Below are positions 33,200 through 40,816 of a stretch of 64,000 nt of DNA, one piece after another; the stretch's first letter is position 1; every line of letters starts with the position of its first letter. The notes beneath the pieces were generated by a model. It searched no databases. It saw only the letters and a list, made by a program, of their open reading frames with translations, and was not told the DNA's origin. Origin of the DNA: Candidatus Bathyarchaeia archaeon (GTDB lineage: Archaea > Thermoproteota > Bathyarchaeia > Bathyarchaeales > DTEX01); the NCBI GenBank assembly GCA_038882715.1, contig JAVZNR010000003.1, forward strand, positions 1 through 64,000, written 5' to 3'. The position numbers and the translations under genes were made by a program.

Positions 33200-34285
33200 T
33201 TACCTAGCGCCATACTTCTCCACCAGCCTCAGAACCCTATACGCTTCCTCCACATCGCTACACCATGTTTGCAGGAATAATCCCCCATGCTTAAGCTCCT
33301 CTAATAGGATTCTTACTTCCCATGGCTCGCAGCTTATATGGAGGCACTTCCCCGAATCCAGTATCTTCCGGCATACATGTATCCACTTGGATGCCGGCGG
33401 CGAGCCTGCCCCCGGAACCCACTGTATCCCATCTATCGAGTCCACCTCTAGAAGTATGTCCAAGTTGCCCAGAGCCATAGGTCCATCCAAATGGAATATC
33501 GAGTTGTCAAGATGCCTAGACAAGGCTACCTGCTCCTCTAGGAAAAACTCTCTAAACATTTTTGGGGAGACCAGCCCAGAAAAATCGTCTTGTAGAGGGA
33601 AGAATTTTCCTCTGGAGTAGGCTGGTATCCAGCTTATTGAACCCTTCTGGACGCGTGAAATCTTCCGGTAAAAGGCTTCAAACACCTCGATGCATATTTC
33701 AGTCAGCCTCCCAATAACTCTTTTAACCTCTTCCGGATGGGTGTAAAGCGCCCTCACAAGGTTCCGCGTACCCATCATGGCTGCTAAAGAGTCTCCGCCA
33801 TAATGAAGGTCCGGTATGCCTACGAGAAAGTTTCCTTCAGCGGCCTCGCAGACAGCATCCATTATATTATTCATTGCCCTCCACCACCTGTTAGATTCGT
33901 TCAGGGAGGGCTCGAAGCCCTCCAAACTATTTAGGAAGGGCTTAACCCATGAAGTATGCTCATCTAGGAATATGAGGTCGCCGCCGAGGAAAGCCGTGAG
34001 CTGATTGGGGCCTAGGTTCGGCCAGTAGGCTGGTATAGCGTCGCCTAGAAAAGCTGTGCTCTCAAAGTAGAGTTCAACCTTCTTCAACACGTAATCTATG
34101 TTCGTCCACTTCTCCTCAACTGTTTTAACAGCCGGCAGCGTTACGCTCCGCTCAGGTTTTCTAGGGGCGGTTATGTGGATTAAAGGCCGATCCAGAATCT
34201 CCCTGTCCCAGAAGGCGTCGAAGCGCTGTTTTATGGCTTCAAAATCTACCTCGCTTAAATAGGATCTCAAAACGCTGCCTCCCAT
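33200..34285 (-). CDS. URO-D-like protein 1
   Basis: 361 residues related to the uroporphyrinogen decarboxylase/methyltransferase superfamily: WVPGAGSPPASKWIHVCRKIL, HISCEPWEVRILLEEL and FLQTWCSDVEEA are typical of a divergent branch often annotated only as URO-D-like. The H..C pair in HISC could bind zinc. There is no partner corrinoid gene beside it. It is second in an operon with URO-D-like protein 2, 11 bp apart. True heme synthesis is unlikely because the substrate-binding arginine signature of HemE is not seen. Substrate unknown. Confidence 0.75.
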   Translation of the reverse strand: MGGSVLRSYLSEVDFEAIKQRFDAFWDREILDRPLIHITAPRKPERSVTLPAVKTVEEKWTNIDYVLKKVELYFESTAFLGDAIPAYWPNLGPNQLTAFLGGDLIFLDEHTSWVKPFLNSLEGFEPSLNESNRWWRAMNNIMDAVCEAAEGNFLVGIPDLHYGGDSLAAMMGTRNLVRALYTHPEEVKRVIGRLTEICIEVFEAFYRKISRVQKGSISWIPAYSRGKFFPLQDDFSGLVSPKMFREFFLEEQVALSRHLDNSIFHLDGPMALGNLDILLEVDSIDGIQWVPGAGSPPASKWIHVCRKILDSGKCLHISCEPWEVRILLEELKHGGLFLQTWCSDVEEAYRVLRLVEKYGAR

Positions 34286-34296
34286 AGCCTCACAGC

Positions 34297-35376
34297 TTAA
34301 TATCCGCCGGTTTCAGAATATATTTTAACCGGGTATCTGCCATGTTTCCTCCAAACGCTTGTGGCCGCCAGCAGCCCCTTCTCCCTATATCCCGCCGGTA
34401 TATCCTCTGTGATCGATAGCATGAAGCGGTCGCCGGGAGCAGCCTCCCTCAAGAGACTTAAAACGTATTCTTTGACTCTGCTGGGGCTCTCCAGGAAGAT
34501 TGATTCAGGAATGTTGAGGCTTACGATTTTCCCATCCCATGCCTCTCTAGCCTCCTTCAGCGGCAGGTCGCCCATGGGTGGAGGCGTAAACGCTTCAACA
34601 GCGTCTAGATCCGTTTTCGCAACCAAGTCTTTTAGAGCCTTAAGCTTCCCATCCATGTGATCCTCTAAGATCTTGTCATGCTTGCGTAGAAGCCTATGCT
34701 GCCTACTGTAGAATGGCATAACGTATTTCTCATAGAGTTTCGGGCTCACTATCACGCTATTTATGTTATCTGTTCCATTCACAACTTCAGCCGGGGACTC
34801 CGCTATTATCTTATAGCGCTCGTCAGCCCTCTTCTCTAAAGCCCTCAGAAGCCTCTCAAACTCTTTAGGATACCTGTGGAGCGCAACAGCGAACATCTCA
34901 TACCCCATAAGCTCGATTTGAAGCTCTTGAATCGGCGAGCGCCCAGCCCAAACGAACACTATTCCATCATCGCCTAGATTACGCTCAGCGTCTAGGAAAG
35001 GCTTATAGTCGGGAACATACCGCGTATCCTCAGCTATAAACTCAACAACCTCAAAGTCCGCCAAGCCCTTAATCGGATGCTCTACGATCCAAGATGAGCC
35101 TGCGCCCTCCTGTAAACCGATTCTCTGCTTCATCGAAACGCTGCCAACAGGGGTATGGAAGCTCGTATATACGATGTTGCCTAGACTCCTCGTCTCAACG
35201 CGGACATGAGGCATCTCAGCCCTCCAAACCGGAGCTGAGACCTTTAAGCCTAAACCCATATTCCTAAGCCTGCGCTCAAAGTAGCCCCTAGGAAGCAACC
35301 CATCATAAATTAACCATGGTATTCTATCGGGTTCCCCGCCGCGGTAAACGGTCATCACCCTCCTCCTCACATTCAA
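34297..35376 (-). CDS. URO-D-like protein 2
   Basis: 359 residues of the URO-D superfamily: PDRIPWLIYDGLLPRG at the N-terminus, DHMDGKLKALKDLVAKTDLDAVEAFTPPPMGD in the barrel (active-site loop) and MLSITEDIPAG at the C-terminus. The pattern matches uncharacterised URO-D proteins of sugar and methyl-transfer loci more than HemE. TTG start at 35376 follows a perfect GGAGGTG at 35382-35388. First gene of the operon with URO-D-like protein 1. Confidence 0.78.
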   Translation of the reverse strand: MNVRRRVMTVYRGGEPDRIPWLIYDGLLPRGYFERRLRNMGLGLKVSAPVWRAEMPHVRVETRSLGNIVYTSFHTPVGSVSMKQRIGLQEGAGSSWIVEHPIKGLADFEVVEFIAEDTRYVPDYKPFLDAERNLGDDGIVFVWAGRSPIQELQIELMGYEMFAVALHRYPKEFERLLRALEKRADERYKIIAESPAEVVNGTDNINSVIVSPKLYEKYVMPFYSRQHRLLRKHDKILEDHMDGKLKALKDLVAKTDLDAVEAFTPPPMGDLPLKEAREAWDGKIVSLNIPESIFLESPSRVKEYVLSLLREAAPGDRFMLSITEDIPAGYREKGLLAATSVWRKHGRYPVKIYSETGGY

Positions 35377-35523: not shown

Positions 35524-35913
35524 TTAAGCGTACTTCCTGCATTTATAGCAGTACCATCTCTGATATTGGGGTATCCACGTAAGCGGGCCTTTGCAGGTTG
35601 GGCAGACCGGCGCCTGCGCCTGTTGTGGCTGTACCTGCTGCACTTGCTGAACCTGTTGTTGCTGGGGCTGCTGCGCCTCTAAAACCTGCGCTGGCCGCGG
35701 TTTCAAGAGGACGAAGTCTCCTACGGATTGCACTTCCTCCCAAGGCACCTCTCTTGTTGAGCCGTCTTTCCCCTCCACGTATAGCGATATGCCCATTCTT
35801 CCGATAGTGAAGCTTATATCCCTAACAGTCCCCACTAGATAGCCGTCCCCATCTATGACCTGCATGCCGATTAAACGCTCTCTCGTCACGCTTCTCTCTC
35901 TCGCCTGCGCCAT
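35524..35913 (-). CDS. PRC-barrel protein with glutamine-rich linker and C-terminal zinc ribbon
   Basis: About 129 residues from ATG 35913, preceded by GGAGAG; TTG 35937 would add eight. Residues 1-70 form a PRC barrel (GMQVIDGDGYLVGTVRDISFTIG, VPWEEVQSVGDFVLLKP). Residues about 72-95 are an unstructured Q/V-rich linker (QQPQQQQVQQVQQVQPQQ). The C-terminus is a CPTC...CYKC zinc ribbon. PRC barrels in archaea occur in RNA-related and cell-division (CdpB-type) proteins. The linker and ribbon suggest a tethered interaction module. Confidence 0.8.
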   Translation of the reverse strand: MAQARERSVTRERLIGMQVIDGDGYLVGTVRDISFTIGRMGISLYVEGKDGSTREVPWEEVQSVGDFVLLKPRPAQVLEAQQPQQQQVQQVQQVQPQQAQAPVCPTCKGPLTWIPQYQRWYCYKCRKYA

Positions 35914-36021
35914 ATGGATCTCTCCAATCAGCCTCAAGATCTATTATTTTGAAGCATAGTTAATTTAAGCTTTGTTGGGCAGCGATAAATTAATAAGGTT
36001 GGAAGACCATAAAAGTAGAGC

Positions 36022-36705
36022 ATGTCGAAATCAATAGAATCCATTTCTAAAGGCTTAGATATCTCAATGAAGAACCCTATGCTGCTGGCCCCCTTCGCCG
36101 CCCCAATTATCGTGCAATGGTTTTTCTCCGCGCTCGCCCAATTGTTCCCCATAAGATACTATTTTATCGAGGCGCCGAACCCATTCATACTCATGTTCGG
36201 CTCATTCGTCGCCGCGATTTTAGGCTTCGTGGCCGCCTGCATGCTCATAGATATGGTTAACGACGTCCTTAACGGTCGGCCGATAGATTTACGCAAGAGC
36301 CTGAACCTTGTAGTTAGCAGAATCGGCACGTTGATCGTCACTGCTGTGATTGCGGCTTTATTCAGCATAACCGTGATATTGCTTCCAATAGCCATGTTCA
36401 TAGTCGTCATAGCTATAATTGAGGAATTAGACGCTGTTGAAAGCGTGAAGAGAGCCTTTAATTTCGTGTTAAGTAATGTGGGTGAAGTCGTGGTCTTCAT
36501 TATCCTCGTAATAATTGTAGGCGCAGCGTTCTCGTATGTTTTCTCGCTAATCCCAATAGTCGGATCATATATAGGGGCAATAGTAAGCTGGCTGTTAAAC
36601 GCCATCTTCACCGTTTCAGCAGCATACTTCTACATCTCGTTAAGACCTCCTCCACCTCCACCGCCACCGCCGCCTCCTCCACCTCCGCCCCCTCCGCCAG
36701 AATAA
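36022..36705 (+). CDS. Multi-pass membrane protein with an 18-proline C-terminal tail
   Basis: 227 residues. About four to five membrane helices: around 18-35, 50-78, 95-125, 150-175 and 178-200, with loops carrying ELDAVESVKRAFNFV, a pattern like DUF4013-type integral membrane proteins. The end is an uninterrupted run of 18 prolines plus one glutamate, encoded with mixed CCT, CCA, CCG and CCC codons, so it is not a simple nucleotide repeat. The tail should project into the cytoplasm. Function unknown; it neighbours zinc-ribbon and SPFH proteins. Confidence 0.8.
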   Translation: MSKSIESISKGLDISMKNPMLLAPFAAPIIVQWFFSALAQLFPIRYYFIEAPNPFILMFGSFVAAILGFVAACMLIDMVNDVLNGRPIDLRKSLNLVVSRIGTLIVTAVIAALFSITVILLPIAMFIVVIAIIEELDAVESVKRAFNFVLSNVGEVVVFIILVIIVGAAFSYVFSLIPIVGSYIGAIVSWLLNAIFTVSAAYFYISLRPPPPPPPPPPPPPPPPPPE

Positions 36706-36841
36706 TCGCCCTCACATAAAAAGGATATTTTTCGTAGGAAATCAACGTGTACCGCCCAAAAAAAGGTTTGAACGCCGCCTCAATCAGAACAAAGATTTAA
36801 ACTATCAAAAAAGAGAAAAGCGCTCATCAACCCCTAGGGCG

Positions 36842-36890
36842 CAAATATTTTAAGTTTTAACATTTTACAGTTTTAGAGAGTGTTGGAGGA
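36842..36890 (+). promoter_or_regulatory. Putative promoter and Shine-Dalgarno of the arrestin-like gene
   Basis: AAATATTTTAAG at about 36843-36854 is a TATA-like box, and GGAGGA at 36885-36890 is a strong Shine-Dalgarno just before the TTG start at 36897. The rest of the 191-bp gap is A-rich and shows no other gene. Confidence 0.45.
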
Positions 36891-36896
36891 TCACTA

Positions 36897-37493
36897 TTGT
36901 CGTTCCTGAAGAAGATGGCTGAGAAGGTTACGCCCCCAAAAGTCAATTTAAAATTAAATCTTAGCGGGGACGTCTTCTCTCTTGGCGGCGATCTTAAAGG
37001 AGAATTGATAGTGTCTTCTGACGAGGATTTTGACGCCGAAGACATTAGATGCGAGATACAGTGTGTTGAGTCGGCTAAGGTTCAGAAACGGTTCTACGAC
37101 CAAGCCCTGAAGAGGGAGGTTATTAGGGAGGTTTGGGAGTCCGCCACGCTATACTCCGCAAAACCAAGCCTCAGCGGGCCCATACATATTTCAAAGGGTT
37201 TTTCAGGCAGCTTTCCCTTCAGCATCCCGATCCCGATCACAATGAAGCCAACCTCTAAGGGGATAGATAGAAGGGTTATGTGGACAATTAAGGGCGTCGT
37301 GGCGGTTAAAGGCAGGCCGGATGCCGTTAGCCCAACTCTTGAGGTTCAAGTCGCCCAGCCGACAGCCGCCCCAGTTATAAAGGAGAGGGAAGTTATCCGC
37401 GAAGTAGTTATGGTTCCATGCAAATACTGCGGGACGCTCTTCCCGCAAACGGATACAGTATGCCCCCACTGCGGCGCTAGAAGAACAGCGTAG
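36897..37493 (+). CDS. Arrestin-like (Spo0M-type) protein with C-terminal zinc ribbon
   Basis: 198 residues. Residues 10-150 have the all-beta arrestin-like pattern seen in Spo0M/Vps26-type proteins: PKVNLKLNLSGDVFSLGGDLKGEL, DIRCEIQCVES and PFSIPIPITMKPTSKG...VMWTIKGVVAVKGR. Residues about 170-195 carry CKYCG...CPHCGAR, a zinc ribbon. A short KEREVIREVV helix links them. It converges on the SPFH gene, which ends in the same kind of ribbon. Suggested role: adaptor or membrane-associated scaffold; not demonstrated. Confidence 0.72.
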   Translation: MSFLKKMAEKVTPPKVNLKLNLSGDVFSLGGDLKGELIVSSDEDFDAEDIRCEIQCVESAKVQKRFYDQALKREVIREVWESATLYSAKPSLSGPIHISKGFSGSFPFSIPIPITMKPTSKGIDRRVMWTIKGVVAVKGRPDAVSPTLEVQVAQPTAAPVIKEREVIREVVMVPCKYCGTLFPQTDTVCPHCGARRTA

Positions 37494-37590
37494 TCTAACT
37501 TCCCTAGACCTTACAGAATAAAAAGATCTAGGGAATTGGCGCTGCGCCCGAATCGTCCGTCAGGTTACTCGTTATCATTGCTTAGATCTA

Positions 37591-38634
37591 TTAAGCCAGC
37601 TTCTCCCCACAATTTTGGCAGAACTTTGCCCCCGGCTGAACCTCGCTTCCACACTTCGGGCATTTAACTGAAGATTGCAGCAGTGAGCCGCAATTTATGC
37701 AGAATTTCGCACCCGCCGGGTTCGCTGTTCCGCATTTCGGGCATGTTAAACCGGCTGCAGCCGCCTGTAGGGGTGCGCCGCAATTGCTGCAGAACTTCGC
37801 TGTTGACGGGTTCTGGAAGCCGCATTTTGGACATAATATGAATTGCTGTGCTGGTGCAGCTGGGGCTGCTGGCGGCTGGAATAACGGCGGAATCACCACC
37901 ACGCCTGCGCCTACGGCTGCGCCGGGGCTTTTCGATAGACTTTCAGCTGTCTTCTGAACCGTCTGCATCCTTAGGACCTCGTTGGCTGAAACCCCAGTTC
38001 TAAGGAAGAATATTCTGTCCCTCCACTCAGGTGTAGTGTCGATTCCCTCAAACTTCACGTCGATTAGCTCCAGCCCAATCCTCTTAAAGGCGTCGTAGAG
38101 GGCGTTCTTCGCCAAGAAGCTGGTTTCGTCGAGTTTTCCGTAGACTTCGGTTAGCGAGTATTGGCTTAATGTGTCGATTAATCTCTCATTGAAGTATCCT
38201 CTAAGAAAATCTTGGAGGCTGCTTGTGGTGTATGCTCCCTGCCCGCCAACAACCTCGTTCACGAAGAGGTTGGGCTCCTCAATCCTAAACCAGAAGCTGC
38301 CATAAAACTTTAGGGGAGCCAGCTCCTTAGTTTGGCCCTGGGCGCCGAATCTCCCCTGAAACTGCTTCAGCGAGACAAATATTACTGTTGCTCTGAATGG
38401 AACTTTATCGAACCCAGATATAACTGATAACACTTTTGTGAGCAACGGTAAGTTCGCTGTTGTCAGGACATGTCTACCAGCCCTAAAGACATCGTACGCT
38501 TTACCATCTCTGAGGAAGACGGCTGCCTCGTACTCGTGAACAATCAGGTTGTCTCCCCAAGCGATCTCCTCACTAGGATACCTCCAGACTATGTCGCTTT
38601 CTCTCGCGCCAACCCACTCAATAACCTTAGGCAT
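37591..38634 (-). CDS. SPFH-domain protein with three C-terminal zinc ribbons (YdjI-like)
   Basis: 347 residues. Residues 1-230 form an SPFH/band-7-type domain of the virion-core/YdjI branch (EWVGARESDIVWRYPSEEI, GRHVLTTANLPLLT, FYGSFWFRIEEPNLFVNEVVGG). A Pro/Ala-rich linker follows, then three double-CxxC ribbons: CPKCG...CSNCG, CPKCG...CINCG and CPKCG...CQNCG. There is no transmembrane helix. Its start directly follows the TAA of the helical protein (TAAATG), so translation is coupled. SPFH proteins organise membrane microdomains; YdjI acts with PspA-type proteins in Bacillus. The archaeal role is inference. Confidence 0.82.
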   Translation of the reverse strand: MPKVIEWVGARESDIVWRYPSEEIAWGDNLIVHEYEAAVFLRDGKAYDVFRAGRHVLTTANLPLLTKVLSVISGFDKVPFRATVIFVSLKQFQGRFGAQGQTKELAPLKFYGSFWFRIEEPNLFVNEVVGGQGAYTTSSLQDFLRGYFNERLIDTLSQYSLTEVYGKLDETSFLAKNALYDAFKRIGLELIDVKFEGIDTTPEWRDRIFFLRTGVSANEVLRMQTVQKTAESLSKSPGAAVGAGVVVIPPLFQPPAAPAAPAQQFILCPKCGFQNPSTAKFCSNCGAPLQAAAAGLTCPKCGTANPAGAKFCINCGSLLQSSVKCPKCGSEVQPGAKFCQNCGEKLA

Positions 38635-39180
38635 TTAACCCACCATCCCCCTGAGAATTTGAACTCTTCTATCAATTAATGCGTCCAGCTCCTCGGCTCT
38701 CGATATTAATTCATTCATAAGTCTCCTCCACTCTTCTCTTCCGGGCTCGGCTCTAACTAGGGATTCAGCGCCCGCCTTAACTGCCTCAGCCTTTTCTATT
38801 AAACTTAAATCATGTTGAATAACCATGTCAAGCTTATCCTCCCTAACTTTAACAGCGTCAAACATCCCAGCGTATCCGGCAACAGCCCTATCTATACGCT
38901 GTATTACCCTGTCGAGGCGGGACATAAGTGCATCAAACCTCCAGGCATCTTCGCTGGAAATTTTCTGCGCTATAATGGGGTTAGCTAGGCTTCTTCTCAC
39001 AGTATCCTTAGCCATCTTAAGCCTATTAACGATCTCCATCCTAACGAGTCTGTCGCTTTCCCTACGCAGCTCTTTCTCCTTATATCCCCGATACCCGGGA
39101 ATGTAGCCGGCTATTCTCTCCAGCAGCCCCATCTCTCCACGAACCTTCTCCAATTTTTCCGGCTTCTTCTCTTCGCTCAT
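38635..39180 (-). CDS. Helical SPFH-partner protein of unknown function
   Basis: About 181 residues from ATG 39180, which overlaps the membrane-protein stop (ATGA) and has GGAGGAGAA upstream; the alternative at 39195 would add five. It is almost all helix: a conserved-looking IPGYRGYKEKELRRESDRL segment (about 22-45), then long amphipathic helices (DALMSRLDRVIQRIDRAV, LSLIEKAEAVKAGAESLV). Lack of membrane helices and coupling to the SPFH gene suggest it binds that protein or the membrane. An ESCRT-III/PspA-like role is attractive but not supported by a clear motif. Confidence 0.7.
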   Translation of the reverse strand: MSEEKKPEKLEKVRGEMGLLERIAGYIPGYRGYKEKELRRESDRLVRMEIVNRLKMAKDTVRRSLANPIIAQKISSEDAWRFDALMSRLDRVIQRIDRAVAGYAGMFDAVKVREDKLDMVIQHDLSLIEKAEAVKAGAESLVRAEPGREEWRRLMNELISRAEELDALIDRRVQILRGMVG

Positions 39181-39524
39181 CCTTTTCTCCTCCAATATTC
39201 AAGCAAACCTATTGATGCGAGAAGAATAAGCAGTAAGCCAAACAACACTATCACATTTATAAGCCTGTAAAGGGCGAAGGATAAGCCTACGATAAACATT
39301 ATCAGCCCCCAACTCAAATAATATAAGTAGTCTCCCCGCGCCTTTAAAGCGTAGATAAGCGTATAGGCCCCAAGGGGGCTGATGATAAATGCAATTAAAT
39401 TTAATGGGTCAAATGCGAGAAGGCCTCCACCATAAATTATCGCCGCCACGCCCAGAGATATGGCGAAAACGAAGAGCGCGCCTAAACCATAACCCATCTT
39501 CTCGGATCTCGCAGACTTTTTCAT
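39177..39524 (-). CDS. Small four-helix membrane protein
   Basis: 115 residues with four closely spaced membrane helices (about 13-35, 37-55, 67-87 and 88-108) and short loops. First gene of the three-gene operon with the helical and SPFH proteins; its stop overlaps the next start by 4 bp. It could anchor the SPFH assembly to the membrane. No family recognised. Confidence 0.7.
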   Translation of the reverse strand: MKKSARSEKMGYGLGALFVFAISLGVAAIIYGGGLLAFDPLNLIAFIISPLGAYTLIYALKARGDYLYYLSWGLIMFIVGLSFALYRLINVIVLFGLLLILLASIGLLEYWRRKG

Positions 39525-39750: not shown

Positions 39751-40816
39751 ATGAAACATAGATTTAAAGAGGCCATAATATTTCTAATATTGCTCATCGC
39801 CTTTGGGCTAGCGCCCAGAGAATCTTTATCGGTTAACGCTGCTAACGTGAACGAAGATTTTTCAGCGGTTTTCGTAGAGAGGATCAGTGTATCTCTTAAC
39901 TGCACAACCGCCGAGCTCCAGGTTTTAAGCATGGTGGTCTCTAACGATATATCGTTAGTGCATTTCCCACCCAAAGTAGATATGGGTAAAAGTGAGCTCG
40001 CCAGCGTGGTTAGCATAATAGTCGTCTTTACCAGAACTTTCTCGAGACTAGTGTTCGCCTTCAACAACACTGATACTGAAGCGTCGAGATTACTCGCGGA
40101 CTCCGTGAAAGGAACCATGGAAGAGGCTTTTGAAGAGGCTTTCACATGGAGCTCCACCGAAATAATTGAAGGGCACTGCGTTGTAACTTATGCTGGTCTA
40201 GGTAAGGGCGACTTAACAGGATACCTAAGCTGGCTTATGGATAGATGCTTAGCCCAAGATTTAGGGGGGATTCTCACTCACATTCATCCCAATTAGCGGT
40301 GAGGAGAACGCCTTCATCGAGATTATTGCCGATAGGAGCGAGGAGACGGGTGAACTGGTATATCTCATGGCCGTAGGATACTATACCAGCGTGCCGGTTG
40401 GGGCTGGACCGCATAAAATAGACTTTCTGAGGCTACTAAATGTTGAGTCGCTTGCCCCCTCAAAGTACGTGTCACCCTTATACTGGGGTACTTCTTCAAT
40501 CGTGGACTTCGTAATACTCTCTAATGAAACGGTTTCTTATGTAACCTCTGAGCCAGGCGCGGCTGTCCTCTTCTCCAGCGAAAGCCTTGCCTACCCCATG
40601 TCTAGGGGCTGGTATATGGTTCCATCGGACTGGCTGGAGCCGCCTCAGCGGTTGCATGTTTTCTTCTCTTTTGGAGATAGCCTCTCACCTGTAGAGAAAC
40701 TTACCTTAACTTTCAGCGGCCTAATAATACCTGAAATCGACAGCGCAACCCCATTGATCGCCCTAATGCTGGCGGCATCCGCGATCATGGTTATTAAAAG
40801 GAGGACCGCTAGATAA
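39751..40816 (+). pseudogene. Exported, C-terminally anchored protein, interrupted by a one-base frameshift
   Basis: The first frame (181 residues) opens with a signal peptide (basic MKHRFKEA, then IIFLILLIAFGLA). The protein continues in another frame from FSLTFIPISGEE to 40816 and ends in a hydrophobic anchor (TPLIALMLAASAIMV) plus KRRTAR. Removing one G from the G6 run near 40264-40269 gives one protein of about 354 residues. I do not recognise the family: a beta-rich extracellular region with few cysteines. A homopolymer error is the simplest explanation; a genuine broken gene is possible. Confidence 0.7.

Follow-up and report, generated by a model that had tools for sequence, protein, structure and literature searches.

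Six neighboring genes between positions 35,524 and 39,524 of the window (the whole 64,000-nucleotide stretch of archaeal DNA that was analyzed) encode proteins with the look of a membrane scaffold, which raises the question of whether they form one system and, if not, which of them belong together. An earlier note, made from the sequence alone, had described six such genes, and all six open reading frames are indeed present, as follows.

Gene A, 35524..35937, minus strand: PRC barrel with a zinc ribbon; stands head-to-head with B and probably lies outside the E-D module.
Gene B, 36022..36705, plus strand: polytopic membrane protein with a polyproline tail; makes up the separable pair with A and probably lies outside the E-D module.
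Gene C, 36897..37493, plus strand: one arrestin-like lobe by prediction, followed by a zinc ribbon, and convergent with D; starts at a TTG preceded by GGAGG.
Gene D, 37591..38634, minus strand: SPFH protein (YdjI-type, PF13421) with three C-terminal zinc ribbons and without a membrane helix.
Gene E, 38635..39180, minus strand: predicted helical-bundle protein; the open reading frame extends to a TTG at 39195, the ATG at 39180 being preferred.
Gene F, 39177..39524, minus strand: hydrophobic protein, probably with four transmembrane helices; first gene of the F-E-D operon and proposed membrane anchor.

In Pfam, A matches the PRC barrel (PF05239, 34 bits against a cut-off of 21.2) and carries one CxxC..CxxC pair at its C terminus, D matches Band_7_1 (96.5 bits; cut-off 24) and Band_7 (68.7 bits) and has three zinc ribbons, and C, with one ribbon, gives a marginal match to Arrestin_N (25.7 versus 24.9 bits). 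The C-terminal CxxC ribbons reported earlier for three of the six proteins are thus confirmed, in A, C, and D. Pfam returned no match over the cut-off for B and none of significance for E and F. Hydropathy places several membrane segments in B, which ends in an 18-proline run (36640-36705), and in F, which is strongly hydrophobic and would accommodate about four membrane helices; it places none in A, C, D, or E, the last of which is all-helical by prediction, and in D no hydrophobic segment exceeds 1.6. The operon structure also held up: the TGA of F overlaps the ATG of E as ATGA at 39180-39177 on the minus strand, with a GGAGG just upstream, the TAA of E abuts the ATG of D, and the arrangement is conserved in relatives. 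Given the ATGA overlap and this Shine-Dalgarno sequence, translation of E probably starts at the ATG at 39180 rather than the TTG at 39195, and the consensus of the E family likewise begins at that position. An Rfam scan of the window gave no match, and there is no sign of a defense or phage origin, because PADLOC returned nothing and PHROGs matched only the zinc ribbons of D. On one side of the cluster, at 33200-35376, lie neighboring open reading frames of 361 and 359 aa that resemble uroporphyrinogen-decarboxylase/methyltransferase-type proteins. On the other, at 39751-40816 on the plus strand, two open reading frames in different frames (181 and 149 aa) together resemble one exported, C-terminally anchored protein and are perhaps a single gene split by a frameshift or sequencing error.

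Comparison of gene order with other archaea singled out two of the six genes, with the E-D order being kept across much of Thermoproteota. Of 114 distinct E loci, 104 are followed immediately by D in the same orientation and 109 have D within five genes, counts that measure the association of E with D and not of D with E, the loci having been chosen on E; the gap is mostly −1 to +5 nucleotides (counted over 97 loci). The five loci without D comprise one near a contig end (L086), one with only short open reading frames at the expected position (L092), one with a short D fragment at the contig end (L164), one near a contig edge with an unlabeled gene next to it (L165), and one that is the second E copy of its genome (L174). 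E was found in 40 of the 61 genomes searched, and its profile matches 86 of 161 Thermoproteota genomes, many of them single-contig, in neighborhoods that are mostly again E-D. A scan of 84,980 species genomes yielded 172 relatives, the best 80 of which come from Bathyarchaeota, Terraquivivens, Caldarchaeum, Calditenuaceae, Nezhaarchaeota, Geocrenenecus, Thermofilum, and others; a plasmid search with E gave no real match. The pair itself occurs in Bathyarchaeia, Caldarchaea-like lineages, Nezhaarchaeota, Thermofilum, and other Thermoproteota, and the existence of a module centered on E-D is well supported. One genome, G002, carries two E-D copies (contigs C73 and C89; loci L032 and L071), the second directly followed by B.

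A and B behave differently, and the earlier placing of both in the same system as D and E was not supported by the comparison. At least seven genomes within the genus have them head-to-head, about 85-110 bp apart, and in five of seven (G003, G006, G007, G009, and G010) the pair is not adjacent to an E match, G006 and G007 even carrying A, B, and C with no E match at all. The pair adjoins E-D in the window and in G004, and in whole or part in G002, L075, and L090; co-occurrence of A or B with E is absent (Fisher p = 1.0). It is true that the order A-B-C-D-E-F is shared by the window and L033, that a Nezhaarchaeota contig (L090) reads E-D-A-B-C, and that L075 reads F-E-D-C-B, as might be expected if all six genes served one pathway. 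Given how often the pair lies elsewhere, however, we consider a single pathway including A and B improbable. Rather, A-B appears to be a module of its own, mostly independent of E-D and probably outside the E-D module. In the relatives with the pair beside E-D, B retains a proline-rich tail wherever the sequence reaches the gene end; the tails in L033, L075, and L090 are shorter than in the window. A, for its part, shares the PRC barrel (34 versus 21.2 bits) with the archaeal PRC-barrel division proteins, which work with SepF/FtsZ and whose role in Haloferax has been described (PMC10936438).

The genes that do accompany E-D include F. Either F or a related protein, f, is found before E or after D and within five genes of E in 61 of the 114 loci, and the profile of the window F matches a 4-TM-like protein that relatives encode downstream of D (hhalign probability 93.5, E 2e-7). 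A further protein, Y, lies within five genes of E in 60 of the 114 loci; it has an N-terminal zinc ribbon, some forms have membrane helices, and the motifs of its second domain, set beside the published account of YdjG (PMC11237479), make that domain read as YpeB/YdjG-like. Among the 61 genomes Y occurs only where E does (26 of 26), even when the two are unlinked (Fisher p 2e-7, a test that ignores kinship and overstates independence). The genome of the window has no Y, the only match there being a 27-bit one to the zinc ribbon. On a Vibrio coralliilyticus plasmid (L178:5718-6323), the gene for a Y-type protein that ends in a hydrophobic segment lies near a YdjI-type SPFH gene (E 6e-17), which suggests that the SPFH-Y pairing is present in bacteria too.

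What kind of protein, then, is D? On sequence grounds it is an SPFH-zinc-ribbon protein of the YdjI type; its own genome contains no other Band_7 or Band_7_1 match, and its family, PF13421, also matches Bacillus subtilis. In Bacillus, YdjI is anchored by the membrane proteins YdjG/H and binds PspA (PMC8581546). The comparison with YdjI and PspA drawn in the earlier note is apt, and D shares with YdjI the family, the C-terminal zinc ribbon, and the lack of a membrane helix. The likeness to pspA-ydjGHI (PMC8581546, PMC11237479) extends to a small operon that includes one or more membrane proteins and may, beyond the window, extend to Y, which resembles YdjG as described in its zinc ribbons, YpeB-related domain, and, in some cases, membrane helices. 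The archaeal module nevertheless differs in several respects. PspA (PF04012) exceeded the cut-off in none of the 61 genomes, that of the window included, although the positive controls matched, and E stands in its place; neither F nor B matches TPM, the domain of YdjH, in Pfam; an arrestin-like protein, C, is linked to the module; and Y is missing from the window genome. Archaeal stomatin-NfeD (STOPP) operons likewise consist of two genes, for an SPFH-class protein and a partner, but Pfam gave no NfeD match for either E or F. In some genomes (as at L160:5173-6168) D ends not in zinc ribbons but in a short helical tail that looks SHOCT-like by eye.

The position of E next to a YdjI-type SPFH gene, together with its all-helical character, is what one would expect if E had diverged within the PspA/ESCRT-III superfamily and the module were a true phage-shock system. 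E is absent from Pfam as a family and carries the conserved motif PG-x-R-GYKEKE-x-R-x-E-x-D-x-L-x-R. All 39 aligned members match NCBIfam NF047596 (LIMLP_15305, from Leptospira; best 4e-18), but the window E scores 49 bits, far below that family's cut-off of 210; we found no paper on E, and LIMLP_15305 appears once in the literature found, as a neighbor in a Leptospira RNA table. Neither PF04012 (PspA_IM30) nor PF03357 (Snf7) matches the window E or is among the families listed for the 39 members. An AlphaFold2 model from 39 sequences (pLDDT 79.6) has four main helices of 22-31 residues and a low-confidence N terminus that contains part of the PG-x-R-GYK motif; it thus appears as a bundle, without the long hairpin known for PspA. 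Foldseek gave no PDB match to the model below E 0.1, and the 50 best PDB matches include no PspA or ESCRT-III entry. The hhalign comparison of E with CdvB and PspA was negative, but it is uninformative, since the CdvB-PspA control also failed. With neither a sequence match nor a matching fold among the best 50, a tie of E to PspA/ESCRT-III is not supported, and we regard membership of that superfamily, and with it a true phage-shock system, as very unlikely.

The remaining gene, C, had been attached to the operon, like A and B, by location alone. For C, repeated adjacency and fusion now argue for a real link, whereas A and B form the separable pair described above. C adjoins E-D convergently on the downstream side in the window, Terraquivivens, and Nezhaarchaeota, divergently on the upstream side in other Bathyarchaeia, and in the same direction in L093, and both L065 and L067 encode it as a fusion with Y. 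E is present in 23 of the 26 genomes with C (Fisher p 0.001, again ignoring kinship and overstating independence); in these 23 relatives C is adjacent to E-D in 10 and away from it in 13. With 198 aa, C comprises one lobe and a ribbon rather than the two lobes of an arrestin. Folds were compared on L065, a homologue about 36% identical to the window C, in which the natural C-Y fusion was modeled with a pLDDT of 84.1 and a pTM of 0.55. The N-terminal domain of that model retrieved Spo0M (E 1e-9) in Foldseek, followed by TXNIP, ARRDC3, and Vps26. Judged from this homologue model, C is a single arrestin lobe, nearest B. subtilis Spo0M and the N-lobes of α-arrestins; it shares the Spo0M and α-arrestin/Vps26 fold but differs in having one lobe followed by a zinc ribbon and in its SPFH context.

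An SPFH protein with zinc ribbons next to β-sandwich proteins resembling cargo adaptors is also a feature of the archaeal ESCRT loci with Meth_adaptin (PMC10936438). However, the cluster in the window contains no ESCRT-III match, Snf7-type matches in this genome lying only on other contigs (C5 and C7), and its putative adaptor has an arrestin lobe in place of the adaptin appendage.

From gene order and domain content we infer that the module is a PspA-free, YdjI-like membrane scaffold in which E is an obligate partner of D, F the probable anchor, and C a probable adaptor, a reading that we hold to be somewhat probable. Thermoproteota would have an ancient membrane-scaffold complex centered on D and E, similar to Bacillus PspA-YdjGHI but without PspA. 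Having no membrane helix of its own, D would assemble at the membrane's inner surface, anchored by F and, where present, by membrane-bound forms of Y. E, whose gene immediately precedes that of D with little variation in spacing, would act as a dedicated binding partner that caps or completes the D assembly, in the place PspA takes in Bacillus, and C, with its arrestin lobe and zinc ribbon, may serve as an auxiliary adaptor, delivering membrane proteins to the scaffold. Such a complex would organize or repair the membrane locally or sort membrane proteins. The physical interactions, membrane position, and function of the module are in each case proposed from the same features. The membrane-stress or vesicle role suggested earlier is likewise an inference, and SPFH proteins also act in other ways. 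Prohibitin and HflKC work with FtsH in membrane-protein quality control, and SPFH families have such roles elsewhere. The module could accordingly be an SPFH cage whose zinc-ribbon and arrestin adaptors, a role that the arrestin lobe and the ribbons would fit, present substrates to a protease. Among the gene families tracked, however, the recurrent neighbors of E-D are F, Y, and C alone, and no constant protease or AAA ATPase was recognized among the neighbors, some of which are unlabeled, so we consider quality control a rather unlikely explanation beside the scaffold.

No described archaeal pathway with such a set was known to the earlier note, and none appears in the papers found, which include none on an archaeal SPFH-arrestin set. 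What is new is a version of the YdjI-type SPFH module built around E, a helical family that has no name; the two-gene E-D unit, itself unnamed, is conserved through much of an archaeal phylum. A bolder possibility, which we put forward only tentatively, is that E-D is an undescribed membrane machine that replaces PspA in much of Thermoproteota and acts in repair or sorting with an arrestin-type cargo adaptor, outside ESCRT. If the module is the archaeal equivalent of PspA-YdjI, it would answer how archaea that lack PspA watch over their membranes, and it would, if true, tie arrestin-type adaptors to SPFH scaffolds outside the eukaryotes.
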